The notes under the pieces are model-generated. The model saw only the letters and a program-made list of their open reading frames with translations, ran no database searches and was not told the DNA's origin. The position numbers and the translations under genes were made by a program. A stretch of 21,721 nt of DNA from Desulfobacterales bacterium (GTDB lineage: Bacteria; Desulfobacterota; Desulfobacteria; Desulfobacterales; JAHEIW01), in contig JAQYWI010000090.1 in assembly GCA_030145015.1 (NCBI GenBank), positions 1 to 21,721 of the forward strand, given 5' to 3'. Positions 1,119 to 21,435 of this stretch are shown piece by piece. Position 1 is the stretch's first letter. Every line of letters begins with the position of its first letter.

Positions 1119-3251
1119 TTAGGCCTGCTTCATCGCGGCCTTGACCCTTGCGGGTGTCATGGGGAGTTGAAACACCGCAGCACCGACGGCATCATATATG
1201 GCCGTTGCAATCACCCCGCCCATGCCGATGATGGCGGGCTCCCCACCTCCCTGGGGCGCGAGGTTCGGGTTTTCTAAAATAACGGTTTCGATTTTGGGCA
1301 GCCACGAAAACTTCGGCAGGGTATAAGTGTCGAAATTAAGATCAAAAATCTCTCCATCCTTAAAGTGAATTTCTTCGGTGAATGCATATCCCAACCCCAT
1401 GGTGATGCAGCCTTCCATCTGCGTGGTCGCCCCCTCGGGGTTAACCACAACCCCCATATCCTGAGCACAAACCACCCGCTTGACGTTCACATTGCCACTA
1501 GCCCTGTCCACTTCCACTTCCGCCATAAATGCCACATAGGTGCCGGCATCGATTCCGCAGGCAATGCCATACCCCCGGCCGCTGGGCGTCTTTAGGGCCT
1601 GCCATCCGAACTTCTTTGCCGCGGCCTGCAAGACGTTGATCATGCGTTTGTCCTTGAGGTGCTCGAGGCGAAATTGAAGCGGATCCGCCCCCGCTTTGGA
1701 AGCCATCAGGTTCAGATGCAAGTCGCGGGCATAGACATTGGTGTTGTTGGCCGGTGCCCGCCATGGGCCGATACCGAAAGGATGATATCTTCCGGCGCTG
1801 CCGCGCCAGCGCCCGTGGACCATCTCTTTGTGATGGGGAATCTCGTAGAACTGTTTGCTTCCCCGCATGCCCGCGTAGTATACGTTATAATCCCAAAAGG
1901 TAATCCGGCCGGAGCTGTTGAGCCCGGATTTAATCTTAACAATGGCTGCCGGCCGAAAGGTGTCGTAAAAAAACTCTTCCGCTCGGCTCCAGGCCACCTG
2001 CACCGGTTTTCCGAGGCGTTTCGCCAAACGGGCGGCTTCCAAAGCCTGCCGGGAGGCCGATTTCCCGCCAAAGGCGCCCCCGACATAAGGCGCGATAACG
2101 CGGACATTATCCGCAGGCAGGCTTAAGCGCTCTGCGATAAACTCTTTAACCCTAAAGGGGGTTTGGGTGGAAGCCCAAACCGTGAGTTTCTTTCCATCAA
2201 AATCGGCGGCGGCCGTGTGCGGCTCCATGGGCGCATGGGCCACATAACTGTTCAAATACGTTTCTTCTATGACAGTTGAAGCCAGTTTTTGACCGGTTTT
2301 AAGGTTTCCGCCTTGAGAAGCGATTTCCGGATCCGGGGCCGATTTGAGCAAATGATCAAAAATAGTCTTGTCGTCGACACCGGTTTTGGGCCGGTCGAAT
2401 TGGGCTTTGATTTGTGCCAGTCCCTGTTCGGCGACATCGGGATGTTCGTGCAGAACGGCGACAAAATCGCCTTCTTTGACAATCTGAATGCCGTCTATAT
2501 TTTTGGCCGGATCGGTATCCGCCTTTACCAATTTAGCCCCATGGGCCGGCGGCCTGAGTATTTTGGCGTAGAGCATCCCCGGCGGCCGGATGTCACCTGA
2601 AAATTTGGCAGCGCCGGTCACCTTTTCGAGCGCATCCCGCCGTGGGAATGATTTTCCCATGGTTTCAAACTCCGCAGACAGTTTTAAAGGCGGCACATCT
2701 TTTAAGTGTTTTTCGATAATGTTACCTTTGGTGAGTTCCCCGTAACTAATTCGGCGGCCGGGGTTTGACGGGTCGTAGACGGTTCCGTTTTGGGTAGCCA
2801 GACGACCAATGGGGGATTTCAGCTGCTCTGCTGCCAATTGCATCAATACCCCTCTGGCCTCGCCCGCAGCCTCGCGCAGAAATACCCCGAAATGGCGGAT
2901 CGAAAGGGAGCCGAAGGTTCCGGCATCCCACGGGCACAGATCGGTATCGCCCATCACAATATCCACCGCGTCATAATCCACATGGAGTTCTTCGGCCAGC
3001 AATTGGGGAATAGACGTCATGGCACCCTGACCCATCTCTATCTTTCCGGTATAAAGGGCGACCCGGTTATCAGCCCCGATTCTCAGAAAGGCATTGAAAT
3101 CGGTGGGGATTCCGCCGTCGAGGAAACCGGTGCGCGGCCTGCGGGCCCATGCCTGGCGATCCAGGGTGTTGAAGCCGATAATGATCCCTCCGCCTAAAAC
3201 ACCCATACGCTTCAGAAATTCACGACGATTCATAGAGGAAGACGGCATCAT
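1119..3251 (-). CDS. Molybdopterin-binding subunit of a xanthine dehydrogenase-family hydroxylase (IorB-like), Tat-exported
   Basis: Large catalytic subunit of a molybdenum hydroxylase, 710 aa, which is normal for the isoquinoline 1-oxidoreductase beta/aldehyde dehydrogenase branch. The N-terminus holds a twin-arginine motif NRREFLKRMG (residues 8-17) followed by a glycine-rich hydrophobic stretch, so the folded holoenzyme is probably exported by Tat. Cofactor motifs are GGAFGGK (391-397) and the C-terminal GGGEPAI, whose Glu671 matches the family's catalytic base. WRAPANN in the middle is also typical. Its ATG overlaps the stop of the 2Fe-2S subunit by 4 nt, behind a GGAGGG site. The substrate (N-heterocycle or aldehyde) cannot be read from sequence. 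No XdhC-type maturation gene or FAD subunit is adjacent. Confidence 0.9.
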   Translation of the reverse strand: MMPSSSMNRREFLKRMGVLGGGIIIGFNTLDRQAWARRPRTGFLDGGIPTDFNAFLRIGADNRVALYTGKIEMGQGAMTSIPQLLAEELHVDYDAVDIVMGDTDLCPWDAGTFGSLSIRHFGVFLREAAGEARGVLMQLAAEQLKSPIGRLATQNGTVYDPSNPGRRISYGELTKGNIIEKHLKDVPPLKLSAEFETMGKSFPRRDALEKVTGAAKFSGDIRPPGMLYAKILRPPAHGAKLVKADTDPAKNIDGIQIVKEGDFVAVLHEHPDVAEQGLAQIKAQFDRPKTGVDDKTIFDHLLKSAPDPEIASQGGNLKTGQKLASTVIEETYLNSYVAHAPMEPHTAAADFDGKKLTVWASTQTPFRVKEFIAERLSLPADNVRVIAPYVGGAFGGKSASRQALEAARLAKRLGKPVQVAWSRAEEFFYDTFRPAAIVKIKSGLNSSGRITFWDYNVYYAGMRGSKQFYEIPHHKEMVHGRWRGSAGRYHPFGIGPWRAPANNTNVYARDLHLNLMASKAGADPLQFRLEHLKDKRMINVLQAAAKKFGWQALKTPSGRGYGIACGIDAGTYVAFMAEVEVDRASGNVNVKRVVCAQDMGVVVNPEGATTQMEGCITMGLGYAFTEEIHFKDGEIFDLNFDTYTLPKFSWLPKIETVILENPNLAPQGGGEPAIIGMGGVIATAIYDAVGAAVFQLPMTPARVKAAMKQA

Positions 3252-3727
3252 TTCATCCCTCCTTTCATCTCCCGGGAAGCGGTTTCAATGGCCGCAACGA
3301 TCCGGGTATGGGCGCCGCATCGGCACAGGTTTTCATCCATACCGTCGATGATTTCTGCCCTCGACGGGGTGGGATTATCAGCCAGCAGGCTGTAGGCTTT
3401 GAGGATCATGCCGGGTGTACAATAGCCGCATTGGAAACCGACATGCCGGATAAACGCTTTTTGAAGCGGATGCAATCTGCCGTTCTGAGCGAGCCCTTCG
3501 ATGGTTGTGATCTCACTGCCGGCGACGTCCTTTATCGTTTTCTGACATGAAAGCACGGCGACATCGTCGGCAAGCACCGTACAGGCGCCGCACAACCCTT
3601 CGCCGCAGCCGTATTTGGGTCCGGTCACGCCCAGATCGGTGCGTAAAACCCACAACAGCGTCCGCTCACCGTCTACTTTCAGGCGCACCGGACGACCATT
3701 CAGTTTAAAACGAATCGTTGCGATCAT
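3248..3727 (-). CDS. 2Fe-2S subunit of the molybdenum hydroxylase (IorA/CoxS-like)
   Basis: Small electron-transfer subunit, 159 aa from ATG 3727, chosen because AGGAGG sits about 6 nt upstream; a longer frame to 3745 lacks a site. Domain order is an N-terminal plant-type ferredoxin fold with the YGCGEGLCGACTV cluster (Cys41, 46, 49, then Cys61), followed by a four-helix [2Fe-2S]-binding domain with CGYC (Cys100, 103) and CRC (Cys135, 137). All eight cluster cysteines are present. It should pass electrons from the molybdenum site of the co-translated large subunit to an external acceptor. It has no signal of its own, so export would be as a complex with the Tat-tagged partner, as known for IorAB-type enzymes. 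Confidence 0.93.
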   Translation of the reverse strand: MIATIRFKLNGRPVRLKVDGERTLLWVLRTDLGVTGPKYGCGEGLCGACTVLADDVAVLSCQKTIKDVAGSEITTIEGLAQNGRLHPLQKAFIRHVGFQCGYCTPGMILKAYSLLADNPTPSRAEIIDGMDENLCRCGAHTRIVAAIETASREMKGGMK

Positions 3728-3847
3728 AAAGAGCCTCCTGTCCAATAAAGGGACGAAGAAAGAATAACGGGAAATAAGCAGTAAGATAATTCTAATTTTC
3801 GGATAAGTCCATCAAAAGGTTCAAGGTTATTCGATTGCGGAATTTTA

Positions 3848-8551: not shown

Positions 8552-9991
8552 TTATTTGGGCTTTATGGATTCGATGACTTTGGTGGTGCTGACCCCATCG
8601 ATCAAAGGAACGATAACCACTTTGCCGCCGGCTTGTTCGACGATTTCATGCCCAACGACCTGCGCGGGGGTGTAATCACCACCTTTTACAATGATGTCGG
8701 GTTTAAAGCTGCGAATCAGCTCCACCGGTGTTTCTTCCTGGAAAAAAACCACCAGATCGACACCTGTAATGCTCGATAACAGTGCGGCGCGTTCTGCCTC
8801 TGGGACAATGGGTCTGGAATCACCTTTGAGCTTTTTGACCGAAAGATCCGAATTCAACCCGATGACCAGCTTGTCGCCTTGATCGGCAGCTGCATGCAGC
8901 AGTTTGATATGTCCGATGTGAAGGATATCAAAACAGCCATTGGTAAAAACGATTCGTTGGCCATTGCGCTGCCAGCCCGCAATCAGATCCCGGGCCTGGT
9001 CTTTGGAAACAATTTTATTCACGCCATCTATGGTTTTGCTCCAAAGGGCCTGCTTCAATTCGCTTTCTAAGATGGGCTGGGTGCCGACCTTTCCGATGAC
9101 GATGCCGCCCGCAATGTTTGCCAGCGCGGCGGCTTCAGACATTTTGAGACCGGATCCGAATGCAGCCGACAGCGATGCGATGACCGTATCTCCCGCTCCG
9201 GAGACATCGTATACTTCCCGGGCGTGGGTCGCAATGTGAATGGCCGGCCGGCCATTTCGGAAAAGCGCTATGCCTTTAGGCCCGCGCGTAACCAGCATAT
9301 AGTCTAAATCATATTTCGCGATCACCTTGCCTGCCTGGCTTTCAAGTATGGTTTCATCGTCTTCAGGGAAAGGTGCAATCAGGTTTAGTTCCGCTGTATT
9401 CGGCGTTACACAGGTGGCACCGCTATAGCGTTCCCAGGAAACACCTTTTGGATCAACAAATGTCGCCACCTTTTTTGACCTGCAGCGCTTGATGATATGT
9501 TGGACCGCATCGAAATTGAATATCCCTTTGCCGTAATCTGAAATGATGACCACATCGGCTTCGGGTAAAGCTTTGTCAAAGTTGTCGAGCAGTTCCTTCA
9601 GGATTTTTTTGGGTATTTCTTTCGAATTTTCTTCGTCCAGCAGCAGGAGCTGTTGATTTTGACCGAGTATCCGGGTTTTCGTCGTTGTGGGATGGCTTTT
9701 TAGAGGGATCAAAACGTTTTTGATGCGCTCTTTTTTTAAAATATCCTGTAAAGACGCGCCATTGGAATCATCGCCCTTTACGCCCAATAGAATCTGCTTA
9801 CAGTTTAACCCCTTTAGATTCTTGGCCACATTACCGGCTCCGCCGAGGGTCAAGGTCTTTTCATTCACCCTCACAACCGGCACCGGTGATTCAGGAGAGA
9901 TCCGCCCAACATCACCCCAGAAATAACGGTCCAGCATAACGTCACCAATAACGAGGACGGTGCAATTGGCAAAATCAGGATAGGCGATCAC
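8552..9991 (-). CDS. hldE: Bifunctional heptose 7-phosphate kinase / heptose 1-phosphate adenylyltransferase
   Basis: 479 aa, the usual length of fused HldE. Residues 1 to about 320 form a PfkB/ribokinase-type kinase, with an N-terminal GDVMLDRYFWGDV signature and the anion-hole motif SGAGDT (catalytic Asp268) that phosphorylates heptose 7-phosphate at C1. The C-terminal third is a nucleotidyltransferase with TNGCFDILHIGHIKLL (HIGH at 358-361) that transfers AMP to heptose 1-phosphate. The start is GTG, and GTGA overlaps the gmhA stop by 4 nt with AAGGA upstream, so the two are coupled. The order kinase, phosphatase (GmhB), adenylyltransferase steps is fully covered by neighbours. Confidence 0.96.
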   Translation of the reverse strand: MIAYPDFANCTVLVIGDVMLDRYFWGDVGRISPESPVPVVRVNEKTLTLGGAGNVAKNLKGLNCKQILLGVKGDDSNGASLQDILKKERIKNVLIPLKSHPTTTKTRILGQNQQLLLLDEENSKEIPKKILKELLDNFDKALPEADVVIISDYGKGIFNFDAVQHIIKRCRSKKVATFVDPKGVSWERYSGATCVTPNTAELNLIAPFPEDDETILESQAGKVIAKYDLDYMLVTRGPKGIALFRNGRPAIHIATHAREVYDVSGAGDTVIASLSAAFGSGLKMSEAAALANIAGGIVIGKVGTQPILESELKQALWSKTIDGVNKIVSKDQARDLIAGWQRNGQRIVFTNGCFDILHIGHIKLLHAAADQGDKLVIGLNSDLSVKKLKGDSRPIVPEAERAALLSSITGVDLVVFFQEETPVELIRSFKPDIIVKGGDYTPAQVVGHEIVEQAGGKVVIVPLIDGVSTTKVIESIKPK

Positions 9992-11986: not shown

Positions 11987-12913
11987 ATGGCATCCGCATC
12001 TTCTAAAAAGGTCATCTATGCTGCTTTAGCCGGTAATTTCCTGATCGCGCTGACCAAGTTTATTGCCTTTTTTGTGACCAAAAGCTCGGCCATGCTGTCC
12101 GAAGGGGTCCACTCGGTCGTGGATACCAGCAATCAAGTTCTATTACTTTACGGATTGCGCCAGGCCAAAAAGCCGGCCGACGCGCGATTTCCCTTTGGAC
12201 ACGGCAAGGAGGTCTATTTCTGGTGTTTTTTGGTTGCCATTATGATTTTTGCCGTCGGGGCCGCGGTCTCCATTTACAAAGGCGTGCATCATCTTCTGCA
12301 TCCCACCCCCATCCAAAACCCGATCATCAATTATGTTGTATTAGCCTTTGCGCTGCTGTTCGAAGGCGCCGCCTGGTATTTGGCCTTTACAGAATTTAAA
12401 AAAGCCAAAGGAAAATGGGGGTATCTCGAAGCCGTGCAGCACGGTAAAGACCCAACCATTTTTGTGGTTCTTTTTGAGGATTCAGCCGCCATGCTGGGTA
12501 TCCTGGCTGCTTTTGTGGGCATCTTTTTGAGCCAGCTTACCAACAACTCCGTTTATGACGGCATTGCCTCGATCATCATCGGACTGATTCTCGCCGGCAC
12601 CGCAGCCTGGTTGGCTTATGAGACGAAAGGTTTGCTTATCGGGGAAAGTGCCAATCCCAGAATCGTGAAGGGTATCAGAAATATTGCATCAGCCTACAGC
12701 AAAATCAAACACGTCAATGAAGTTTTAACCCTGCATATGGGCCCTGATTTTATCCTGTTGAATCTAAGCGTCGATTTTGCTGACAGCTTGTCGGCTGGAG
12801 ATATTGAAGATACGATTGCAAGGCTGGACAGACAAATCAAACAAGCCTATCCTAAAATCAAACGCATTTTTGTGGAGGCTGAATCCAGAGGGGTGAAGAC
12901 TGACAGTGTTTAA
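11987..12913 (+). CDS. Cation diffusion facilitator (CDF) transporter, SLC30A9-like
   Basis: Inner-membrane divalent-cation/proton antiporter of 308 aa with about six transmembrane helices (from residue 10) and a C-terminal cytoplasmic domain (from about residue 220). TM2 carries HSVVD (His42, Asp46), half of the transport metal site, followed by FPFGHGKE, the CDF signature. In TM5 the usual HxxxD is replaced by an acidic pair in LFEDSAAMLG (Glu164, Asp165), as in the SLC30A9/ZnT9-like subgroup. Zn or Mn export is possible; the metal cannot be assigned. ATG at 11987 has a modest GGAG upstream. Monocistronic, pointing toward smpB. Confidence 0.88.
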   Translation: MASASSKKVIYAALAGNFLIALTKFIAFFVTKSSAMLSEGVHSVVDTSNQVLLLYGLRQAKKPADARFPFGHGKEVYFWCFLVAIMIFAVGAAVSIYKGVHHLLHPTPIQNPIINYVVLAFALLFEGAAWYLAFTEFKKAKGKWGYLEAVQHGKDPTIFVVLFEDSAAMLGILAAFVGIFLSQLTNNSVYDGIASIIIGLILAGTAAWLAYETKGLLIGESANPRIVKGIRNIASAYSKIKHVNEVLTLHMGPDFILLNLSVDFADSLSAGDIEDTIARLDRQIKQAYPKIKRIFVEAESRGVKTDSV

Positions 12914-12960: not shown

Positions 12961-13275
12961 TCCGCAGATTCCGCAGATTGCACCGATAAAAAAAATAAAT
13001 TATACTATCCACAGATGACACAGATGACACCGATTATTTAAATGAGCAGTCGGGGAGTTTTTTATTCAAAGCTTGTCGTTCCCGCGCAGGCGGGAATCCA
13101 GAAATGTTCTGCTGAAAAAGCTGGATGCCCGCCTGCGCGGGCATGACGGGAAAAACTCCCCGACCCCTCAATTAAATAAATCATAAAAATTCACTTATTA
13201 AGATAATGATCTGCTTAATTTGCTAATATGTTTTAAACTTTATTATAATCTGTGAAAATCTGCGGAATCTGCGGA
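12961..13275. repeat. Outer 19-bp inverted repeat pair
   Basis: TCCGCAGATTCCGCAGATT at 12961-12979 is the perfect reverse complement of 13257-13275. Each arm is itself a doubled CCGCAGATT. The pair encloses the hairpin element at 13037-13178. Confidence 0.75.
13037..13178. mobile_element. MITE-like palindromic element (about 140 bp), no coding capacity
   Basis: Three nested pairings share one axis. AT-rich ends (around 13037-13046 and 13168-13178) pair approximately. GTCGGGGAGTTTTT (13049-13062) pairs perfectly with 13151-13164. A 27-nt arm with the core CCCGCGCAGGCGGG (13075-13101) pairs at 24 of 27 positions with 13121-13147. The whole unit folds into one long hairpin with a 19-nt apical loop. 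This is the shape of a non-autonomous miniature inverted-repeat element or REP-like unit. No transposase or clear target-site duplication is visible. Confidence 0.6.
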
Positions 13276-14047: not shown

Positions 14048-15814
14048 TTAATCAGAATACGTTTGTTCCGCAAGAATGCTGCCGTAAGTTGCCTTTATGA
14101 GTTCGAAGGTGTTCCTGGCTGTCCTCTGTTTAAGTACATCCTGCAGAAACGATCGGGCATCCGCAACGTTCAATGATCGGATGACCCGCTTAATATCCGG
14201 GATGGTTTGGGGATTCATGCTGAGCTCTTCCATTCCAAGGCCTAACAGCAGCGGGATGTGATGGGGTGTACCGGCCATTTCGCCGCACATGAAGATCTTT
14301 ATCTCTTTTTCTTTGGCCACATCGGCGACATGCTTGAGCATCCGGATAATGGCAGGGTCAAGGGGCTGGTACAGGTGGGAGACCTGTTCGTTGCCCCTGT
14401 CGATGGCAAGGGAGTACTGAATCAGATCATTGGTACCGATGCTGAAAAAATCAACTTTTTCTGCGATTACATCGGCCATAATCACCGCCGAAGGAACCTC
14501 AATCATGGCACCGATTTCAATATCGCGCTTATAAGGCAGTCCTTCTTTTTCAAGAGATTGGGCTGCTTCGTCTAAAATCCGATTTGCTTCACAGATTTCA
14601 AAATACGTTGAGATCATCGGAAACAGAATCCGCACGTTTCCAAAGGCGGCTGCCCTTAGAATGGCGCGAAGCTGGGCCTTAAAAATATCCGGTTTTTTCA
14701 AACAATACCGGATCGCACGCAGACCCAGGGCCGGGTTTTTTTCATCTGAGCCTACAGGGTTGGCCAGGGCTTTGTCGCCATTGATATCGAGGGTGCGGAT
14801 CGTGACCGGCCTGGGATCCATGACCTCGACAACGTCTTTGTATTTATCAAAAAGCTCATCTTCGCTCGGAAAATCAGGGCGGTTGAAATATTGAAACTCG
14901 GTACGGTAAAGACCAATCCCGTCACCACCATAATTAATTAACGCAAACACTTCTTCCGGCAGCTCAATATTGCCCATGACCTCCAAGCGGACGCCATCTA
15001 CCGATTCTGCCGGAACCCGGCTTTCGCGGGTTATGACAGCCTTATATTCTTCAAAATGGGTTTTGCGCTCTTCATACTGGACCAAAGTGTCTTCCGCCGG
15101 ATGGATAATGACATTGCCGGATCTGCCATCGACGATGATAAGATCATCACTTCGAATCGATGAGGTTGCACTTTTAAGTCCGACAACGGCCGGTATTTCA
15201 AGGCTGCGCGCGATAATTCCGGTGTGAGATGCTTTGCCGCCTCGATCGGTAATAAAACCCATAACCCGTTCGAGGTTGATCTGGCTGGTTTCAGCCGGGG
15301 ACAGGTCATGTGCAACCAGAATGACCCGTTTGTCGATGGCGGCAATATTGACCCTTTCAGCACCGACCAGGTTTCGCATGATACTATCGGCGACCTGAAC
15401 AACATCGCCGGACCGCTCCCTTAAATAGGGATCCGTCATCGTCTGGAAAATCTCACGTAAATTCGATACAATTTTTTTGAGCGCCCATTCAGCATTGACA
15501 CCCTCATTCTTGATGACTTCAATCGTGCTTCCATACAGCATTTTATCTTTGAGCAGGGCGATATGGGTTTCAAGGATATGGGCGTGCTGCAATTCTGCGG
15601 GGCTCTTCTCTACAATTTTACGGAGCTCATCTCTGGCTTTTTTAACGGCTGCTTTGAATCGCTTGATTTCGTTTGACCGCTTTTTGTCCGCGATCCGGTA
15701 TTTTTCGACGACCTCAACACCTTCCCGGTCAACCAGGTAAGCTTTTCCGATACAGACTCCCGGAGATGCACTGATTCCTTTAATTATGATTTCTTCAGCG
15801 GCAGTATCCATCAT
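14048..15814 (-). CDS. ptsI: Phosphoenolpyruvate-protein phosphotransferase (Enzyme I)
   Basis: Cytoplasmic Enzyme I of the PEP phosphotransferase system, 588 aa; it autophosphorylates from PEP and passes the phosphate to HPr. The N-terminal HPr-binding/phosphohistidine domain has GGKASHTGIIAR with His197 as the phosphorylated residue. The C-terminal PEP-binding TIM barrel has GIGLYRTEF, the FSIGTNDLIQY loop and FMCGEMAG with catalytic Cys510. Two ATGs in tandem (15814, 15811) follow a weak AGG. It lies 6 nt after ptsH, so it is co-transcribed. No sugar-specific EIIB/EIIC is nearby, so the pair may serve a regulatory or mannose-type system encoded elsewhere. Confidence 0.95.
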   Translation of the reverse strand: MMDTAAEEIIIKGISASPGVCIGKAYLVDREGVEVVEKYRIADKKRSNEIKRFKAAVKKARDELRKIVEKSPAELQHAHILETHIALLKDKMLYGSTIEVIKNEGVNAEWALKKIVSNLREIFQTMTDPYLRERSGDVVQVADSIMRNLVGAERVNIAAIDKRVILVAHDLSPAETSQINLERVMGFITDRGGKASHTGIIARSLEIPAVVGLKSATSSIRSDDLIIVDGRSGNVIIHPAEDTLVQYEERKTHFEEYKAVITRESRVPAESVDGVRLEVMGNIELPEEVFALINYGGDGIGLYRTEFQYFNRPDFPSEDELFDKYKDVVEVMDPRPVTIRTLDINGDKALANPVGSDEKNPALGLRAIRYCLKKPDIFKAQLRAILRAAAFGNVRILFPMISTYFEICEANRILDEAAQSLEKEGLPYKRDIEIGAMIEVPSAVIMADVIAEKVDFFSIGTNDLIQYSLAIDRGNEQVSHLYQPLDPAIIRMLKHVADVAKEKEIKIFMCGEMAGTPHHIPLLLGLGMEELSMNPQTIPDIKRVIRSLNVADARSFLQDVLKQRTARNTFELIKATYGSILAEQTYSD

Positions 15815-15820
15815 CCTAAC

Positions 15821-16111
15821 TTATTCCCCAAAACCAGTTTCAATCAGATTGACAATGTCTTCTAAAATGGGCCGATCGGCTTTATCTTCAATCATCAGCG
15901 TAATTTTAGATCCTTTTTCACATGCCAGTGTAAGGATATCTACAATACTGGAAGCATCCGCTTTTTCAGCGTCCTTTTTTACCCAGACCGCAGCTTTTGA
16001 ATTTTGGGCAAGCCCGGCGATTTTGGCGGCCGAGCGGGCGTGTAAACCCAGTTCGTTTACGATAACCACTTCCCTGGATAATTCCGGTGATAGATTGGTC
16101 AAATAAGTCAT
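15821..16111 (-). CDS. ptsH: Phosphocarrier protein HPr
   Basis: 96 aa from ATG 16111 (AGGT just upstream; a longer frame to 16144 has a hydrophobic, unlikely N-terminus). The phosphoryl-accepting histidine is His24 in NELGLHARSAAKIA. The second regulatory region KADASSIVDILTLACEKG aligns Ser55 with the HPr-kinase target Ser46 of Firmicute HPr. A Ser here fits HprK control, which many Desulfobacterota have; no hprK is in the window. A short N-terminal extension before the core (about 8 residues) makes it slightly longer than the typical 85-90 aa. It heads the ptsH-ptsI unit. Confidence 0.93.
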   Translation of the reverse strand: MTYLTNLSPELSREVVIVNELGLHARSAAKIAGLAQNSKAAVWVKKDAEKADASSIVDILTLACEKGSKITLMIEDKADRPILEDIVNLIETGFGE

Positions 16112-16124
16112 TAAACCTACAATT

Positions 16125-16151
16125 ATTATAAAAATTTTAATCAATTATCAA
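16125..16151 (-). promoter_or_regulatory. Possible promoter of ptsHI
   Basis: On the minus strand TTGATA (16146-16151) and TATAAT (16125-16130) are separated by 15 bp, shorter than the ideal 17. A TTGACA also lies further upstream, but without a matching -10. The leader would be very short. Weak call from motif only. Confidence 0.3.
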
Positions 16152-16291
16152 TATAACAATATATGTCAATTTGTAATTATTGACAAGATCGGAAATGGTT
16201 GTTAAGGTTTTGCAGGTCTTAAGCGCAACTGTCTGAAATTAAAATATATATTTATTAATATCAAACCCTTTAAGCATAGGAGGATGGCGCG

Positions 16292-16519
16292 ATGTCTGAA
16301 AAAGTATTGATATTCGGAAAAGATGCCTGACCGTATACGCGGGCAGCTCGTGAAGCTTATGCCGAAAAAGAAACGGAATTTGACTATATGGACGTGGTAT
16401 CAAATCCCGACCAGCTCGACGCCATGCTCGAACATTCCGATGGCGTGCGCAAAGTCCCGGTGATCGTTGAGGCCGGGGAGGTGATCATCGGTTTTGATGG
16501 GGGCACCTGAGGGGTGTAA
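16292..16519 (+). CDS. Glutaredoxin-like double selenoprotein (UXX-star type), 75 aa
   Basis: Read with UGA as selenocysteine, ATG 16292 (AGGAGG 8 nt upstream) runs to TAA 16517-16519. UGA 16328-16330 is codon 13 in GKDAUPYTRAAREAY, which replaces the first Cys of the glutaredoxin CPYT/CPYC motif. The rest is glutaredoxin-like: FDYMDVVSNPDQ, and VRKVPVIV holding the cis-Pro. UGA 16508-16510 is codon 73, giving the ending GGTUGV-stop. Conserved redox motifs on both sides of each UGA argue against a pseudogene. It matches what I recall as the UXX-star (seleno)protein family, small thioredoxin-fold proteins with a Sec three residues from the end. Probable cytoplasmic thiol/selenol redox protein; partner unknown. 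Divergent from ptsH. Automatic gene finding would miss it. Confidence 0.85.
16342..16363 (+). promoter_or_regulatory. Candidate bacterial SECIS for the first UGA
   Basis: Within the coding sequence, GGCA (16342-16345) pairs with TGCC (16360-16363) and GCT (16346-16348) with AGC (16354-16356). The loop is CGTGA and a 3-nt bulge lies on the 3' side. The loop starts 19 nt after UGA and has G in its second position, as bacterial SECIS elements usually do. Stability was not computed. Confidence 0.5.
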
Positions 16520-16547
16520 ATTATTCGGCCGGCGGCCGAATAATTTA
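16517..16547 (+). promoter_or_regulatory. Candidate SECIS for the second UGA, overlapping the stop codon
   Basis: A perfect 14-bp stem (16517-16530 with 16534-16547, top CGGCC/GGCCG) closes a GGC loop. The loop begins 21 nt after the second UGA with G first, fitting bacterial SECIS geometry. The stem begins at the first base of the stop codon and lies mostly in the 3' UTR. A weak T-containing tail follows, so it may double as an mRNA end or terminator. Confidence 0.6.
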
Positions 16548-16632
16548 GTTATCCGTAGCAAATTCTGGCTGAAAAATTAAAAAATCAACCTGCCCTCCTA
16601 CCTTATTATTCTCTTGACTAACATACATATAC

Positions 16633-16660
16633 ATTATAGCTAAAACGTTTTAGCTATAAT
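16633..16660 (+). promoter_or_regulatory. 28-bp perfect palindromic operator overlapping a -10 box, upstream of livG
   Basis: A perfect 28-bp dyad has the core AGCTAAAACGTTTTAGCT and is centred between 16646 and 16647. Its right end contains TATAAT (16655-16660), a consensus -10 box. A TTGACT lies at 16614-16619, with an alternative TATAGC 15 bp downstream inside the left arm. A repressor bound here would block either promoter. The central ACGT with A/T flanks resembles LacI-type operators, though TetR-type regulators also use long dyads. No regulator gene is adjacent. The site lies 91 bp before the livG ATG. Confidence 0.7.
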
Positions 16661-16751
16661 TCGCTCAATCAAATGAATTTAATTCATATTATTTCGATCC
16701 TTATGATTTGCAAAAAAAAGTTTGTTTCGATATCGGAAAAGTGTGTGCTGG

Positions 16752-17513
16752 ATGGCGACTTTAAACGTTAACGATGTCACGCTTGCATTTGGCGGTTTAA
16801 ATGCGCTGAGTGAGGTATCTCTCAGTATCGAACCGGAGCTGATCACCTCGATTATCGGTCCTAACGGGGCCGGCAAAACCAGCCTGCTGAACTGTATTTC
16901 CGGTTTTTACCACCCCACAAAAGGCAAGATCTTATACGGCGATCAAAACCTTTCCAAAGCCTCTCCACACCAGGTTTCCAGCCTGGGAATTGCGCGTGCC
17001 TTTCAAAATATCGAGCTATTCAGCGGTATGACGGTCCTGGACAACCTGCTGCTGGCCCGCCACCAGAACTTGAAATACAACATATTTCAAGCCGTTTTCT
17101 ATTCCGGGAAGGCATCTGATGAGGAAGCTAAAAATCGACAATATGTCGAGGAAATCATCGATTTTATGGAGCTTGAAGCGTATCGCAAAAAAACGGTCGG
17201 GAGTCTCAGCTACGGTATCCAAAAAAGCGTTGAAGTCGCCCGGGCGCTGACACTGGGTCCGGATTTGCTCTTATTGGATGAACCCATGGCCGGTATGAAT
17301 ATCGAAGAAAAAGAAGATATGGTGCGCTTTGTAATGGACATTCAAAAAGAACGCCATACCACCGTGGTGCTGGTCGAACACGACCTGGGCGTCGTGATGG
17401 ACATATCCGACTATGTGTACGTACTCGACTTCGGGCAATTAATTGGTGCCGGCCAACCCAATGAAGTCGCTGAAAATCCAAAAGTCGTTGAGGCCTACAT
17501 CGGGGAAGAATAG
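16752..17513 (+). CDS. livG: Branched-chain-type ABC transporter ATP-binding protein (LivG)
   Basis: 253 aa from ATG 16752. An in-frame TTG at 16722 would add ten residues, but the conserved family start begins at MATLNV. Its ribosome site is weak. ATPase motifs are Walker A GPNGAGKT (36-43), signature LSYGIQKSVEVARAL (from 152; the usual Q after LSYG is Ile here), Walker B LLLLDEP (Asp176, Glu177) and the H-loop VEHD. FGGLNAL and ARAFQNIELF are LivG-type. First gene of a tight operon with a synthetase and two permeases, controlled by the palindrome upstream. Substrates of such HAAT importers include branched-chain amino acids, amides, urea and aromatic or fatty acids. Confidence 0.92.
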   Translation: MATLNVNDVTLAFGGLNALSEVSLSIEPELITSIIGPNGAGKTSLLNCISGFYHPTKGKILYGDQNLSKASPHQVSSLGIARAFQNIELFSGMTVLDNLLLARHQNLKYNIFQAVFYSGKASDEEAKNRQYVEEIIDFMELEAYRKKTVGSLSYGIQKSVEVARALTLGPDLLLLDEPMAGMNIEEKEDMVRFVMDIQKERHTTVVLVEHDLGVVMDISDYVYVLDFGQLIGAGQPNEVAENPKVVEAYIGEE

Positions 17514-17518
17514 CCAGG

Positions 17519-19447
17519 ATGGAAGATAGAGACGCAGTACTGCAATATACGATTCCGCAACTGCTGAGGTGGCGGGTGCAGCAATCCGGCGATAAGGTCG
17601 CGTTGCGTGAAAAAGATTTTGGCTATTGGAATACGCTCACCTGGAAAGAATACTATGATTACGTTCACAAGACGGCGCTCGGACTGGAAAAAATCGGCTT
17701 AAAAAAAGAGGATAAGCTGGCCTTGATTACCGATAATATCCCTGAGATGCTGATTGTGTCCATCGGCGCCCAGGCCATTGGTGCGATTTCGGCCGGAATC
17801 TATCAAACCAGCCTGCCGGATGAAATCGCGGATATCCTTGATTATATGGATGTCAGCATCGTTTTCTGCGACGACCAGGAACAGGTCGATAAGCTGGTGG
17901 AAATCAGAGACCGCATCCCCGGGGTGAAAAAGGTCCTGTACGAGGATCCGCGCGGTATGCGCGACTATCGATCAGATGACTGGTTTATGTTCATCGATGA
18001 TCTATACGTGCTCGGAGAGAAGGCCCGCGCGGAAAATCCGGAGCGCTTTGATCAGCTGATCGATGCGGGCCACCCGGATGATGTCTGCCATTTTTGCCTG
18101 ACTTCCGGAACAACCGGTTTGCCGAAAGGCGCCATGCTGACGCACATCAACTACATCAACATGGGTCTTCAGCTGACCGAGGTTGATCACCTTGAAGCAG
18201 ATGATGAATACGTTTCATTCCTCCCGTTTGCCTGGATCGGGGAGCAGATGAATTCCTTCGGCGTGGCTCTGGCCACCGGAATTACGATCAATTTTCCGGA
18301 GTCGGTCGAGACCGCCATGGAGGATTTAAAAGAAATCGGCCCGCATTTTATGTTCGGCGCTCCGCGGATCTATGAAACCCTGCAGTCTCAGATCTGGCTC
18401 AAAATCGACGAATCCTACTGGCTCAACCGGCTTTTTTACCGGTACTTCATAAAGGTCGGCGAAAAAGCGGCCTCCTATCGCATGTCCGGCAAGGCCATGC
18501 CGTTTTCTTTGCGAATCCTGGCGTGGTTCGGCAAAAGCCTGGTATTCCTTCCTTTGATCAATCAGATCGGAATGCAGCGGCTGCGTAGAGCTTATACCGG
18601 TGGGGCCGCGTTGGGGCCTGATCTTTTTACCTTCTATCAGGCGCTGGGCGTTAACCTGAAACAGATTTACGGACAAACCGAAATCACGGGGATCGCCTAC
18701 ATGCACCGTGATGGTGACGTTCATCCCGATACGGTTGGAATTCCACTGCCCGGCACCGAGTGCAAGATATCGGAAGATGGCGAAATCCTCTCGTGTTCGC
18801 CCTCAGTGACCAAAGGGTATTATAAAATGCCGGAAAAAACGGCGGAGCTGCTGCAAGAAGGATGGCTGCGCTCGGGCGATGCGGGCTATATCGACGAAAG
18901 CGGGCATCTGGTCGTCATCGATCGTCTGTCCGATGTGATGCACAACAGCAAGGGCGAGATGTTCAGCCCCATGTTTTTGGAAAATAAGCTCAAATTCAGT
19001 CCCTATATCAAGGAAGCCGTTATTTTCGGTGACGGGCGGGAGTATATCGCCACCTTGATTAATATCGACCCGATTGTGGTCGGCAAGTGGGCTGAGGACC
19101 GGGGTATCTCCTTTTCGACCTTTATGGATCTTTCGCAAAGGCCCGAAATCGCCGATTTGATCAACAAACAGGTCGTCGAGTTCAATAAAAATGTCGAAAA
19201 GCCGCATTTTAGAATCAGGCGATTTGCCATTCTTTACAAACTGCTCGATGTCGATGACGGCGAGCTGACCAAAACCGGTAAAATACGCCGTAAATTTATC
19301 CAGGAAAAATATGAAGATCTTTACGATGCGCTTTATGATGAAAGCGTGAGTGAAAAAATGGTGGAAGCATTTTTTCAATACCAGGATGGTCAAACCGCGA
19401 CGGTGGAAACAAAACTAGAATTTTTCACGATGGAAGATGTCAAATGA
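17519..19447 (+). CDS. AMP-forming long-chain-type acyl-CoA synthetase embedded in the liv operon
   Basis: 642 aa, the length of FadD15-like long-chain acyl-CoA ligases. It activates a carboxylic acid with ATP and CoA through an acyl-AMP. Motifs are the P-loop TSGTTGLPKG (195-204), YGQTEITG (from 384), RSGDAGY with ATP-ribose-binding Asp454, DRLSDVMHNSKGE, and the late KTGKIRRKF with catalytic Lys588. It starts 5 nt after livG (ATG 17519) and overlaps livH by 4 nt, so it is fully co-translated with the transporter. The placement suggests that an imported carboxylate is trapped as its CoA ester by vectorial acylation. Whether the acid is fatty, dicarboxylic or aromatic is not readable. Confidence 0.92.
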   Translation: MEDRDAVLQYTIPQLLRWRVQQSGDKVALREKDFGYWNTLTWKEYYDYVHKTALGLEKIGLKKEDKLALITDNIPEMLIVSIGAQAIGAISAGIYQTSLPDEIADILDYMDVSIVFCDDQEQVDKLVEIRDRIPGVKKVLYEDPRGMRDYRSDDWFMFIDDLYVLGEKARAENPERFDQLIDAGHPDDVCHFCLTSGTTGLPKGAMLTHINYINMGLQLTEVDHLEADDEYVSFLPFAWIGEQMNSFGVALATGITINFPESVETAMEDLKEIGPHFMFGAPRIYETLQSQIWLKIDESYWLNRLFYRYFIKVGEKAASYRMSGKAMPFSLRILAWFGKSLVFLPLINQIGMQRLRRAYTGGAALGPDLFTFYQALGVNLKQIYGQTEITGIAYMHRDGDVHPDTVGIPLPGTECKISEDGEILSCSPSVTKGYYKMPEKTAELLQEGWLRSGDAGYIDESGHLVVIDRLSDVMHNSKGEMFSPMFLENKLKFSPYIKEAVIFGDGREYIATLINIDPIVVGKWAEDRGISFSTFMDLSQRPEIADLINKQVVEFNKNVEKPHFRIRRFAILYKLLDVDDGELTKTGKIRRKFIQEKYEDLYDALYDESVSEKMVEAFFQYQDGQTATVETKLEFFTMEDVK

Positions 19448-20337
19448 GTTATTTTTTTCAATTGGTGGCCAGTGGGATCGTGGTCGGCTCTATTTATGCG
19501 CTTTCCGGACTTGGGTTTGTCCTGATTTATAAATCCAGCCGCGTGCTGAATATTGCCCATGGACAGTTTATTGCGCTGGGCGCCTTCATTACTTACGCGC
19601 TGACCGTCGGGCTGCATATTCCCATCTACATTTCCTTTTTGCTGAGTCTGATCATCACCTTCCTGATTGCCATGAGTGTGGAACGCATCTTTTTGCGCCG
19701 TTTGATCGGCGAACCCATTATATCGGTGATTATGGTCACCATCGGGTTAATGTCGATTCTTGACGGGCTCATCTATCTGACCCCGTTTGGTACGGAGAAC
19801 TTCTCCTTTCCGGAGTTTTTGCCAAAAACACCGATCGCCTTGGGCGGGGTTTCGATTTCCTGGACCCAGTTTGTGGGCGTTATTATCACCGTCATATTAA
19901 TTGCCGGCTTTTCCTGGTTCTTTAAAAAATCGACCATCGGCATATCCATGCGGGCGGTTTCGGATGATCAACTGGCGTCGATGTCCATCGGGATTTCCAT
20001 TCCCCGGGTGTTCGGTTTGGCCTGGGCCGCCGCCGGCTTCAGCGCGGCAGCCGCGGGAGGCATTATCGCCAATATTACGGGGTTGAACTTCGACACTCTG
20101 GTTTCTTTCGGTATTATCGTGTTTCCCGTGGTGATTCTCGGCGGGCTGGATTCGATTTTCGGCGCGGTGGTCGCCGGTATCATTTTGGGGCTGATTCAGC
20201 AGTTTGCCGCCGGATACCTGGACGGTCTCTGGGGACTGTTCGGCACCGCCGACCTGTTGCCCTGGTTTATCCTTTTGATCATTTTATTAATCAAGCCTCA
20301 CGGCCTTTTTGGCGTACATGAAATTGAACGGGTGTAA
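19444..20337 (+). CDS. livH: Branched-chain-type ABC transporter permease (LivH)
   Basis: 297-aa inner-membrane permease with about eight hydrophobic segments. The N-terminus has the LivH signature SGLGFVLIYKSSRVLNIAHG (residues 21-40, with GQFIALGAF following). The central cytoplasmic loop FKKSTIGISMRAVSDDQLAS is the EAA-like ATPase contact. The C-terminal half carries the GGIIANITGLNFDT and FPVVILGGLDSIFGAVVAG stretches typical of the family. ATG at 19444 overlaps the synthetase stop in ATGA. It pairs with LivM to form the pore. Confidence 0.94.
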   Translation: MSYFFQLVASGIVVGSIYALSGLGFVLIYKSSRVLNIAHGQFIALGAFITYALTVGLHIPIYISFLLSLIITFLIAMSVERIFLRRLIGEPIISVIMVTIGLMSILDGLIYLTPFGTENFSFPEFLPKTPIALGGVSISWTQFVGVIITVILIAGFSWFFKKSTIGISMRAVSDDQLASMSIGISIPRVFGLAWAAAGFSAAAAGGIIANITGLNFDTLVSFGIIVFPVVILGGLDSIFGAVVAGIILGLIQQFAAGYLDGLWGLFGTADLLPWFILLIILLIKPHGLFGVHEIERV

Positions 20338-20340
20338 GTT

Positions 20341-21435
20341 ATGTCGCAGAATCGCTGGCTGGCAACCGGTAATTTTTTCACATCGCACAAGCAGGAACAG
20401 CGCATCTTCTTTACGCATCTGGACCGGTTGATCTTTATATGCTTTCTGGTTCTGGCGTTTGCCTGGCCGCTTTTTTTCAAGCTCGGCAATAAAAATATGC
20501 TGGTGATCGACAATATTCTGGTGGCCATTATTGCGATTTACGGGTTAAATCTGCTGACCGGTTATACCGGCCTGATTTCCATCGGGCATGCCGCCTTTGT
20601 CGGGGTGGGGGCTTACACCCTGGCGACCTTTTCGCGGATTCTGGGAGACAGCCACGTGTTGCTGACCCACGCCTGGCCCTTGATGATCCTGCTGGCCGGG
20701 GGGGTCGGTGCCGTGATCGGCGCCTTTGTGGGCCTGCCGGCCCTGCGGCTGAAGCATTTGTACCTGGTGATTGCCACCCTTTCCTTTCAGATGATCTTCC
20801 AGTGGGTCATCAATTTTTCGAAATTTTTTAATCAGGGCCAAACCATCGCCATCGGCCGGGTATTCTGGTTTGCCGGCAAAGTGACCCGCAGTCAGCATTA
20901 TTTGTTCTGGTATTATGTTGCCCTGATATTTGTGGTGCTTTTCGGATTTGGCGTCCGCAATTTGCTGCGCACGCGTTACGGAAGGTGTCTGGTGGCGGTG
21001 CGCGACAATGACCGCGCCGCCGATGCCATGGGCATGCACCCGGGATTCACCAAGGTGTACGCATTCGCGCTGTCCGGATTTCTTGCCGGTGTCGCCGGAG
21101 CGCTGCATGCCTACCTGTGGCGCGGCGTGGGCTTTGAATCGTTTACGCTGCATCACTCCATTAACTATCTGGCCATGGCGATTGTCGGCGGATTGGGCAG
21201 CCTGATGGGGTCATTTTTCGGACCCACGGCGATTTTCATGCTGGATGTCCAGGTCGAGCACCTTTCTGAATTCGCCAAAACATTGTTTCCGTCGGCGCTG
21301 GACCTGGCAACGGCATTGCGCCCGCTGTCATTTGGTCTGGTGATCGTCCTGTTTTTGATGTTTGAACCGCGCGGTATTGCCAACTGGTGGCGGATCCTGC
21401 GCAGCTATTTAAAACTCTGGCCATTTCGTTACTGA
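20341..21435 (+). CDS. livM: Branched-chain-type ABC transporter permease (LivM)
   Basis: 364-aa inner-membrane permease. After a polar N-terminal extension of about 30 residues come about eight to nine transmembrane segments. Signature stretches are GLNLLTGYTGLISIGHAAFV (LivM/LivH family N-terminal motif), LLRTRYGRCLVAVRDNDRAA (ATPase-contact loop) and INYLAMAIVGGLGSLMGSFF. ATG lies 3 nt after the livH stop, with only a weak GGGTG upstream, so translation is probably coupled. The LivF ATPase and periplasmic LivK/LivJ that complete the importer should lie beyond the window or elsewhere. Confidence 0.93.
   Translation: MSQNRWLATGNFFTSHKQEQRIFFTHLDRLIFICFLVLAFAWPLFFKLGNKNMLVIDNILVAIIAIYGLNLLTGYTGLISIGHAAFVGVGAYTLATFSRILGDSHVLLTHAWPLMILLAGGVGAVIGAFVGLPALRLKHLYLVIATLSFQMIFQWVINFSKFFNQGQTIAIGRVFWFAGKVTRSQHYLFWYYVALIFVVLFGFGVRNLLRTRYGRCLVAVRDNDRAADAMGMHPGFTKVYAFALSGFLAGVAGALHAYLWRGVGFESFTLHHSINYLAMAIVGGLGSLMGSFFGPTAIFMLDVQVEHLSEFAKTLFPSALDLATALRPLSFGLVIVLFLMFEPRGIANWWRILRSYLKLWPFRY

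Follow-up and report, generated by a model that had tools for sequence, protein, structure and literature searches.

The closest described relatives of the gene considered here are the UXX-star selenoproteins, a name that we take to stand for U-X-X-stop. Table 1 of a 2026 review (PMC13188914) lists NF041114, the NCBIfam model 'UXX-star selenoprotein family 1', as 'Distant Grx-like protein 1' with the motif UxxT and two selenocysteines (Sec, U), and the available part of the same review raises the possibility that UXX-star Sec residues are metal ligands or act on unknown substrates; the portions of the literature consulted give no tested function for family 1. Here we describe a member of this family encoded in a 21,721 bp contig of a Desulfobacterales bacterium (JAQYWI010000090.1, assembly GCA_030145015.1), the whole of which is referred to as the window. 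The gene has in-frame UGA codons at positions 13 and 73, and we are highly confident both that it encodes a UXX-star family 1 selenoprotein and that both UGAs are recoded. This is a real gene, one that the conventional reading of stop codons would interrupt at two points, and it now has a place in a named family.

The reading frame begins with an ATG at 16292 and is intact except for two TGA codons. An initial annotation, made from the letters of the sequence alone, had described these two in-frame UGAs within 75 codons behind a good ribosome-binding site, which is what the sequence holds, with AGGAGG 8 nt before the ATG. Translation with TGA as U gives the product MSEKVLIFGKDAUPYTRAAREAYAEKETEFDYMDVVSNPDQLDAMLEHSDGVRKVPVIVEAGEVIIGFDGGTUGV, followed by a stop. 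When the intergenic stretch is translated in six frames, TGA being read as U, the 16292-16519 frame appears together with others that overlap it, and the 16292-16519 frame alone was scanned against protein families. The product scores 111.3 bits to NF041114 (curated cut-off 72) over model positions 1-70 of 70, so the earlier guess of a UXX-star protein was correct, and the subfamily model NF041212 is also exceeded (87.1 bits, cut-off 66). Scores to the related NCBIfam models are under their curated cut-offs, namely NF041211 (UXX-star family 2; 59.2 bits, cut-off 100), NF047338 (UXX-star family 3; 47.4 bits, cut-off 97) and NF045501 (HUGP/GUXX-star fusion; 46 bits, cut-off 325). The Pfam glutaredoxin family PF00462 matches with 37.8 bits against a gathering score of 22.9, and GST_N_3 is slightly above its cut-off (27.4 against 22). 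The UxxT active-site motif is present as U13-P-Y-T16, and the second UGA is followed by GV and TAA, which is the two-Sec, UXX-stop arrangement of NF041114.

A set of homologous DNA was assembled from the best 80 of 117 confirmed related genome loci, giving 81 genes with that of the window. Codon 73 is TGA in all 80 loci, in agreement with the earlier placement of a second UGA near the stop, and a Cys at this position is found in none of the 80 loci kept. Codon 13 is TGA in 75 of the 80 and a Cys codon (TGC or TGT) in the other five, as suits a UGA that had been read as replacing the Cys of a CPYT-type motif to give UPYT; both UGAs are present in 75/80. Cys-containing homologues had been anticipated at both positions, and this held at 13 and failed at 73. 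Residue 16 is Thr in the window and in 80/80 loci, and the arrangement of a classical dithiol glutaredoxin (CPYC, with a resolving Cys at the fourth position) is absent. Between the two UGAs (59 codons, 14-72) the window and its closest locus, L001, differ with a nonsynonymous rate (dN) of 0.15 and a synonymous rate (dS) of 0.91, and 27 of the 40 differences fall at third codon positions; the low dN relative to dS and this third-position bias show that purifying selection acts at the protein level past the first UGA. The recurrence of the two UGAs is not a matter of chance, and Sec13 behaves like any Sec/Cys site, with Sec73 the invariant one.

Standard annotation had been expected to leave this region empty, which is partly right; a dedicated NCBIfam model exists, and among 120 listed of 224 database homologues there are 108 with W at both positions, presumably, to judge from the protein records, because predictors translated UGA as Trp. 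In the other 12, residue 13 is Cys and the protein stops short of residue 73, which is expected if TGA73 is taken for a stop. Likewise, two Sec residues in so small a protein had been called rare, and this is so for selenoproteins in general but not within UXX-star family 1, for which, in the table of the review, two is the listed number.

Components of the Sec machinery were sought in the genomes of 16 of the 80 loci and in 14 control genomes. Matches over cut-off were found for SelB in 16/16 genomes (2/14 controls), SelA in 16/16 (1/14 controls), tRNA-Sec in 12/16 (5/14 controls) and SelD in 12/16 (2/14 controls), and 13 of the 14 over-cut-off SelD matches themselves contain an in-frame TGA. 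The genome of the closest locus, L001, has all four over cut-off. We infer from these relatives that Sec is incorporated in the organism of the window as well.

U73 is followed by a strong hairpin, the core stem of which begins with the stop codon's first base. The published model of a bacterial selenocysteine insertion sequence (SECIS), as given in the available part of the review (PMC13188914), has a loop of 3-9 nt, an upper stem of 4-16 bp, a G in the first two loop bases, a distance of 16-37 nt from the UGA and a minimum free energy of at most -7.5 kcal/mol. The U73 hairpin agrees with this throughout, with a GGC apical loop starting 20 nt past the UGA, 14 bp and -18.1 kcal/mol. Its 40-nt fold has a z score of -4.48 and was equalled by none of 200 shuffles; a 53-nt fold (-23.2 kcal/mol, z -4.60) gains a few more pairs, located under a small bulge, from codons 74-75. 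Apart from these few pairs the SECIS is outside the coding region, and the position of the conserved core at and beyond the stop codon follows from U73 being the third residue from the protein end.

The hairpin is a family feature. The best hairpin after U73 was taken in each of the 81 genes, with the loop allowed 16-37 nt from the UGA, and has a mean of -9.9 kcal/mol, with 61/81 at or below -7.5; in control windows shifted by 40, 80, 120 and 160 nt, -7.5 is reached in 15/81, 12/80, 6/79 and 8/79 genes respectively, with means of -3.4 to -2.0. The loop is 16-25 nt from UGA73 in 80/81 genes, most often at 18 nt. RNAalifold, run on a sequence-only alignment, returns the same stem with both-sided changes in 6/6 pairs. 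In an eight-pair version of the stem 80.9% of the alignment cells are paired, against 56.6% in shuffles (0/500 as high) and 23-43% when the stem is slid, and 196 cells carry double changes against 76 in shuffles (0/500); that every pair (8/8) shows at least one double change is uninformative, since 469/500 shuffles do the same. Rfam has no SECIS or other family of note here (the window at gathering threshold, 16200-16700 at E values up to 10, and L001, L003 and L007); the scan at E up to 10 gives two matches far below their gathering scores. A bacterial SECIS located past the stop codon is mentioned in none of the titles and abstract openings of the literature searched, and we make no claim that this position is unpublished. 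The strongly covarying SECIS core, placed at the stop codon and beyond it, is a modest new point about this family.

A second such point concerns the stop itself. The codon that follows the UXX motif is TGA in 39, TAA in 36 and TAG in 6 of the 81 genes, the window having TAA. Where it is TGA (for example in L003, L005 and L028), the Sec UGA is followed nine bases later by a second UGA that shares its frame and likewise stands in front of the hairpin. With the number expected computed from each locus's own long open reading frames (ORFs), a TGA stop is found in 35 of 69 loci (window included, at least three long ORFs each) against 21.4 (sd 3.4), relatedness being uncorrected. UGA is not avoided beside the U73 hairpin, and relatives have a tandem arrangement of Sec UGA and stop UGA. 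As the loop usually lies 18 nt from UGA73, only 9 nt would separate it from a UGA at codon 76, less than the 16-37 nt that the SECIS model allows, and termination at that UGA would be expected. The available family literature states neither the position of this SECIS at and beyond the stop nor the frequency of UGA stops. The family offers a natural test of SECIS reach, in that UGA73 is apparently recoded by a hairpin with its core at or beyond the stop, and in 39/81 genes translation apparently still ends at another UGA nine bases downstream.

The predicted fold agrees with the glutaredoxin assignment. An AlphaFold model made with 73 relatives has a mean predicted local distance difference test score of 85.3, a predicted template modelling score of 0.68 and the order beta-alpha-beta-alpha-beta-beta, and its structure matches are glutaredoxins, NrdH-type proteins, glutathione transferases and other thioredoxin-fold proteins. 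A thioredoxin fold with a VPV cis-Pro motif had been proposed from the sequence, and PF00462, the model and the glutaredoxins of the PDB all support it. The 73-row alignment shows no variation at C/U13, P14, T16 or VPVIV. The alignments of the 50 structure rows listed all stop at residue 70 or 71 of the model, which leaves the UXX tail without a counterpart in them. Ordinary glutaredoxins continue into a last helix.

We therefore favour the following explanation, in which the codons, the family membership, the hairpins, the fold family and the machinery of relatives are observations, and Sec incorporation in this organism and the Sec13-Sec73 chemistry are deductions. The gene belongs to a Desulfobacterales-like bacterium and encodes a 75-residue selenoprotein, both UGAs very probably being decoded as Sec by a SelA/SelB/SelC/SelD system. 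For UGA13 the help would come from a weak hairpin within the coding region, and for UGA73 from the strong hairpin whose conserved core, starting at the stop codon, lies in the 3' untranslated region. The glutaredoxin fold ends where ordinary glutaredoxins enter the last helix, and a short GGTUGV tail takes its place. Sec13 in UPYT would be the attacking residue; Thr16 stands where CPYC would have its second Cys, and the Sec73 of the tail would resolve the oxidised Sec13 through an intramolecular diselenide or selenosulfide relay. Given Thr16 in place of a resolving Cys and an invariant Sec73, attack by Sec13 with resolution by Sec73 is the most economical mechanism, and the protein is most likely a glutaredoxin-fold redox protein that works in this way. 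On the chemistry of the Sec13-Sec73 relay taken by itself we lean only somewhat towards acceptance. The joint proposal, that Sec73 resolves Sec13 without glutathione as a diselenide relay and that the SECIS would sort Sec UGA from stop UGA purely by spacing, is put forward tentatively, both the sorting mechanism and the chemistry being conjectural.

The hairpin proposed for U13 has a loop, CGUGA, that starts 18 nt after the UGA with G second, and a local stem of -2.2 kcal/mol in the window; the family often has a small hairpin after position 13 whose loop, CGUGA or AGGUC, is at 18 nt. Across 73 of the 76 Sec13 genes the stem is paired in 85.7% of cells, against 76.5% in shuffles (0/500) and 16.6-52.6% when slid. 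The closing pair and loop G are intact in 71/76 Sec13 genes and in 0/5 Cys13 genes (Fisher p ~1e-5, relatedness uncorrected), and the five Cys13 genes retain 2-4 of the four stem pairs, which means that the stem persists in part.

Several observations weigh against the explanation above. The U13 hairpin of the window is no more stable than shuffles (53-nt fold, z -0.14), and -7.5 kcal/mol is reached at only 11/81 position-13 sites. Its pairs with double changes (2/5) are reached by 491/500 shuffles and its number of pair types by 265/500, and the criterion of intactness (closing pair and loop G) was set after the sequences had been inspected. The evidence for Sec machinery comes from the genomes of relatives, and among these 16 genomes an over-cut-off tRNA-Sec is absent in G005, G007, G008 and G013 and an over-cut-off SelD in G004, G005, G007 and G016; these may be gaps in metagenome-assembled genomes (MAGs). 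Finally, Sec13 can be replaced, as in the five Cys13 genes, but U73 cannot; a symmetrical diselenide pair alone would not predict this asymmetry. For U13, the contrast between Sec13 and Cys13 genes is stronger support than the covariation count, which is confounded by coding constraint and clade structure; the putative hairpin is a weak one and the case for it comparative.

The main rival to the relay chemistry keeps the selenoprotein as described but makes Sec13, Sec73 and the tail a binding site for a soft metal or metalloid, or a carrier of selenium or sulfur, in place of dithiol-like redox cycling. That none of the 80 loci kept has Cys in place of U73 points to a task for which Cys is poorly fitted and would suit such a role, as would the cation-efflux gene at 11987-12913, but the glutaredoxin active-site frame (C/U13, P14, T16, VPVIV) is conserved throughout the 73-row alignment, and the thioredoxin reductase/AhpF-like flavoprotein that neighbours the gene in six Nitrospirota loci (one representative scanned) mildly favours redox; no mercury or arsenic family is present among the nine window proteins scanned, a targeted search not having been made. 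Metal or metalloid binding seems to us unlikely, though it deserves consideration.

Far less probable is that UGA73 is a normal stop, the protein ending at Thr72 and the hairpin serving as a terminator. Standard gene callers do take this view, as do the 12 listed homologues that end there, and it is countered by the presence in 81/81 genes of UXX and then a stop codon, by a hairpin that covaries, keeps a near-constant distance from UGA73 and has the same loop G in at least 90% of the alignment rows, and by the consensus TGAGGnGTnTAA of the stretch from UGA73 to the stop. A search for the U-run terminator pattern found 0 in the region, with 0.7 expected from shuffles, and the terminator reading of the hairpin was rejected. 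The remaining readings, UGA as Trp in a code 4 organism (as W at both sites in the 108 database proteins would have it, presumably from the code used by the predictors) or TGAs that are sequencing errors or pseudogene lesions, were rejected as next to impossible, since UGA ends 187/598 ORFs of at least 200 codons in the window and loci and is an ordinary stop, the same two codons recur in 75/80 loci, position 13 alternates with Cys and never with Trp in the 80 loci, and SelA and SelB are over cut-off in 16/16 genomes tested.

Table. The selenoprotein gene, its signals and its divergent neighbours in the window.
Feature	Coordinates	Strand	Basis
PtsI gene (enzyme I of the PTS), divergently oriented and conserved	14048..15814	-	PF02896, PF05524, PF00391
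HPr (phosphocarrier of the phosphotransferase system, PTS) gene, divergent neighbour	15821..16144	-	PF00381; synteny
AGGAGG ribosome-binding site, 8 nt upstream of ATG	16278..16283	+	sequence reading
UXX-star family 1 selenoprotein gene, 75 codons + TAA	16292..16519	+	sequence; NF041114; PF00462
UGA codon 13, predicted Sec13 of the UPYT motif	16328..16330	+	sequence; locus comparison
Weak in-frame SECIS-like hairpin, putatively for U13, stem AGCU/AGCU, loop CGUGA	16345..16357	+	alignment columns 18-30; covariation
UGA codon 73, predicted Sec73 of the C-terminal UXX-stop motif	16508..16510	+	sequence; locus comparison
TAA stop, doubling as the first bases of the SECIS core stem 5' arm	16517..16519	+	sequence; fold
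Bacterial SECIS-type hairpin for U73, 14-pair core stem, loop GGC	16517..16547	+	fold; family covariation

The neighbourhood of the gene says little about its function, and no neighbour common to all loci was found. PtsI is divergent and upstream within 6 kb in 23/80 loci (flank lengths vary). L001, from an uncultured Desulfobacterales MAG, has seven flanking genes in common with the window at 72-87% protein identity, and the shared set is cation-efflux, SmpB, PtsI, HPr, selenoprotein gene, LivG, acyl-CoA synthetase and LivH, with an extra regulator-like ORF between the selenoprotein gene and LivG in L001. The names SmpB, LivG/H/M, HldE and acyl-CoA synthetase are interpretive, Pfam domains having been checked for nine window proteins. 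Downstream neighbours across the loci include a TIGR00730-type protein (14 loci) and a PAS/GAF regulator (8 loci), with one representative of each scanned. An AhpF/thioredoxin-reductase-like flavoprotein (neighbour cluster 11) lies within 5 kb of the UXX-star gene in the Nitrospirota loci L049, L064, L073, L074, L076 and L080, on the same strand in four of the six; that of L049, the sole representative scanned, has an N-terminal thioredoxin-type domain. It is a possible electron donor, though the hint is weak.

Elsewhere in the window, the region directly downstream of the gene (16722-21435) encodes an ATP-binding cassette (ABC) ATPase, an AMP-binding enzyme and two permeases of the branched-chain amino acid type, which we read as a transporter operon of the Liv type with an acyl-CoA ligase gene set within it. 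On the minus strand at 1119-3745 there is a pair of molybdopterin-binding large and 2Fe-2S small subunits of the molybdenum hydroxylase type. Nested inverted repeats with 29-nt and 27-nt arms, 89-90% complementary, lie between the cation-efflux gene and smpB (13034-13179), and their translation reads PRRRxS...LRGHD/LRGND on both strands, a pattern that we take to be that of widespread palindromic intergenic repeats. They are flanked by perfect 19-nt inverted arms, TCCGCAGATTCCGCAGATT, at 12961-12979 and 13257-13275, 277 nt apart, which are perhaps the ends of a small mobile element. The window contains no tRNA, and a search of plasmid DNA gave no match to it. Among 96 genomes from the order to which the genome of L001 belongs, the best match to the protein encoded at 8552-9988 has 62% identity, so that none of these genomes is near-identical.

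Among known systems, there is a parallel with those thioredoxin reductases in which a C-terminal Sec tail serves a separate redox site; the likeness is in mechanism only, fold and size differ, and homology is not claimed. The glutaredoxins cGrx1 and cGrx2 (PDB 7c10, 7c12, 4tr0 and 4tr1) are among both the sequence and the fold matches and share the glutaredoxin fold, but identity is only ~22-26% and the UXX tail has no counterpart there. UXX-star family 2, as described in the available part of the review, has one Sec and the motif GxGU (PMC13188914), in contrast to the two Sec and UxxT of the window protein. In family 1 the likeness extends to the NF041114 score, the UxxT motif and the two Sec, with no feature found that sets the window protein apart; it is a newly spotted member of a catalogued family and not a new kind of selenoprotein.
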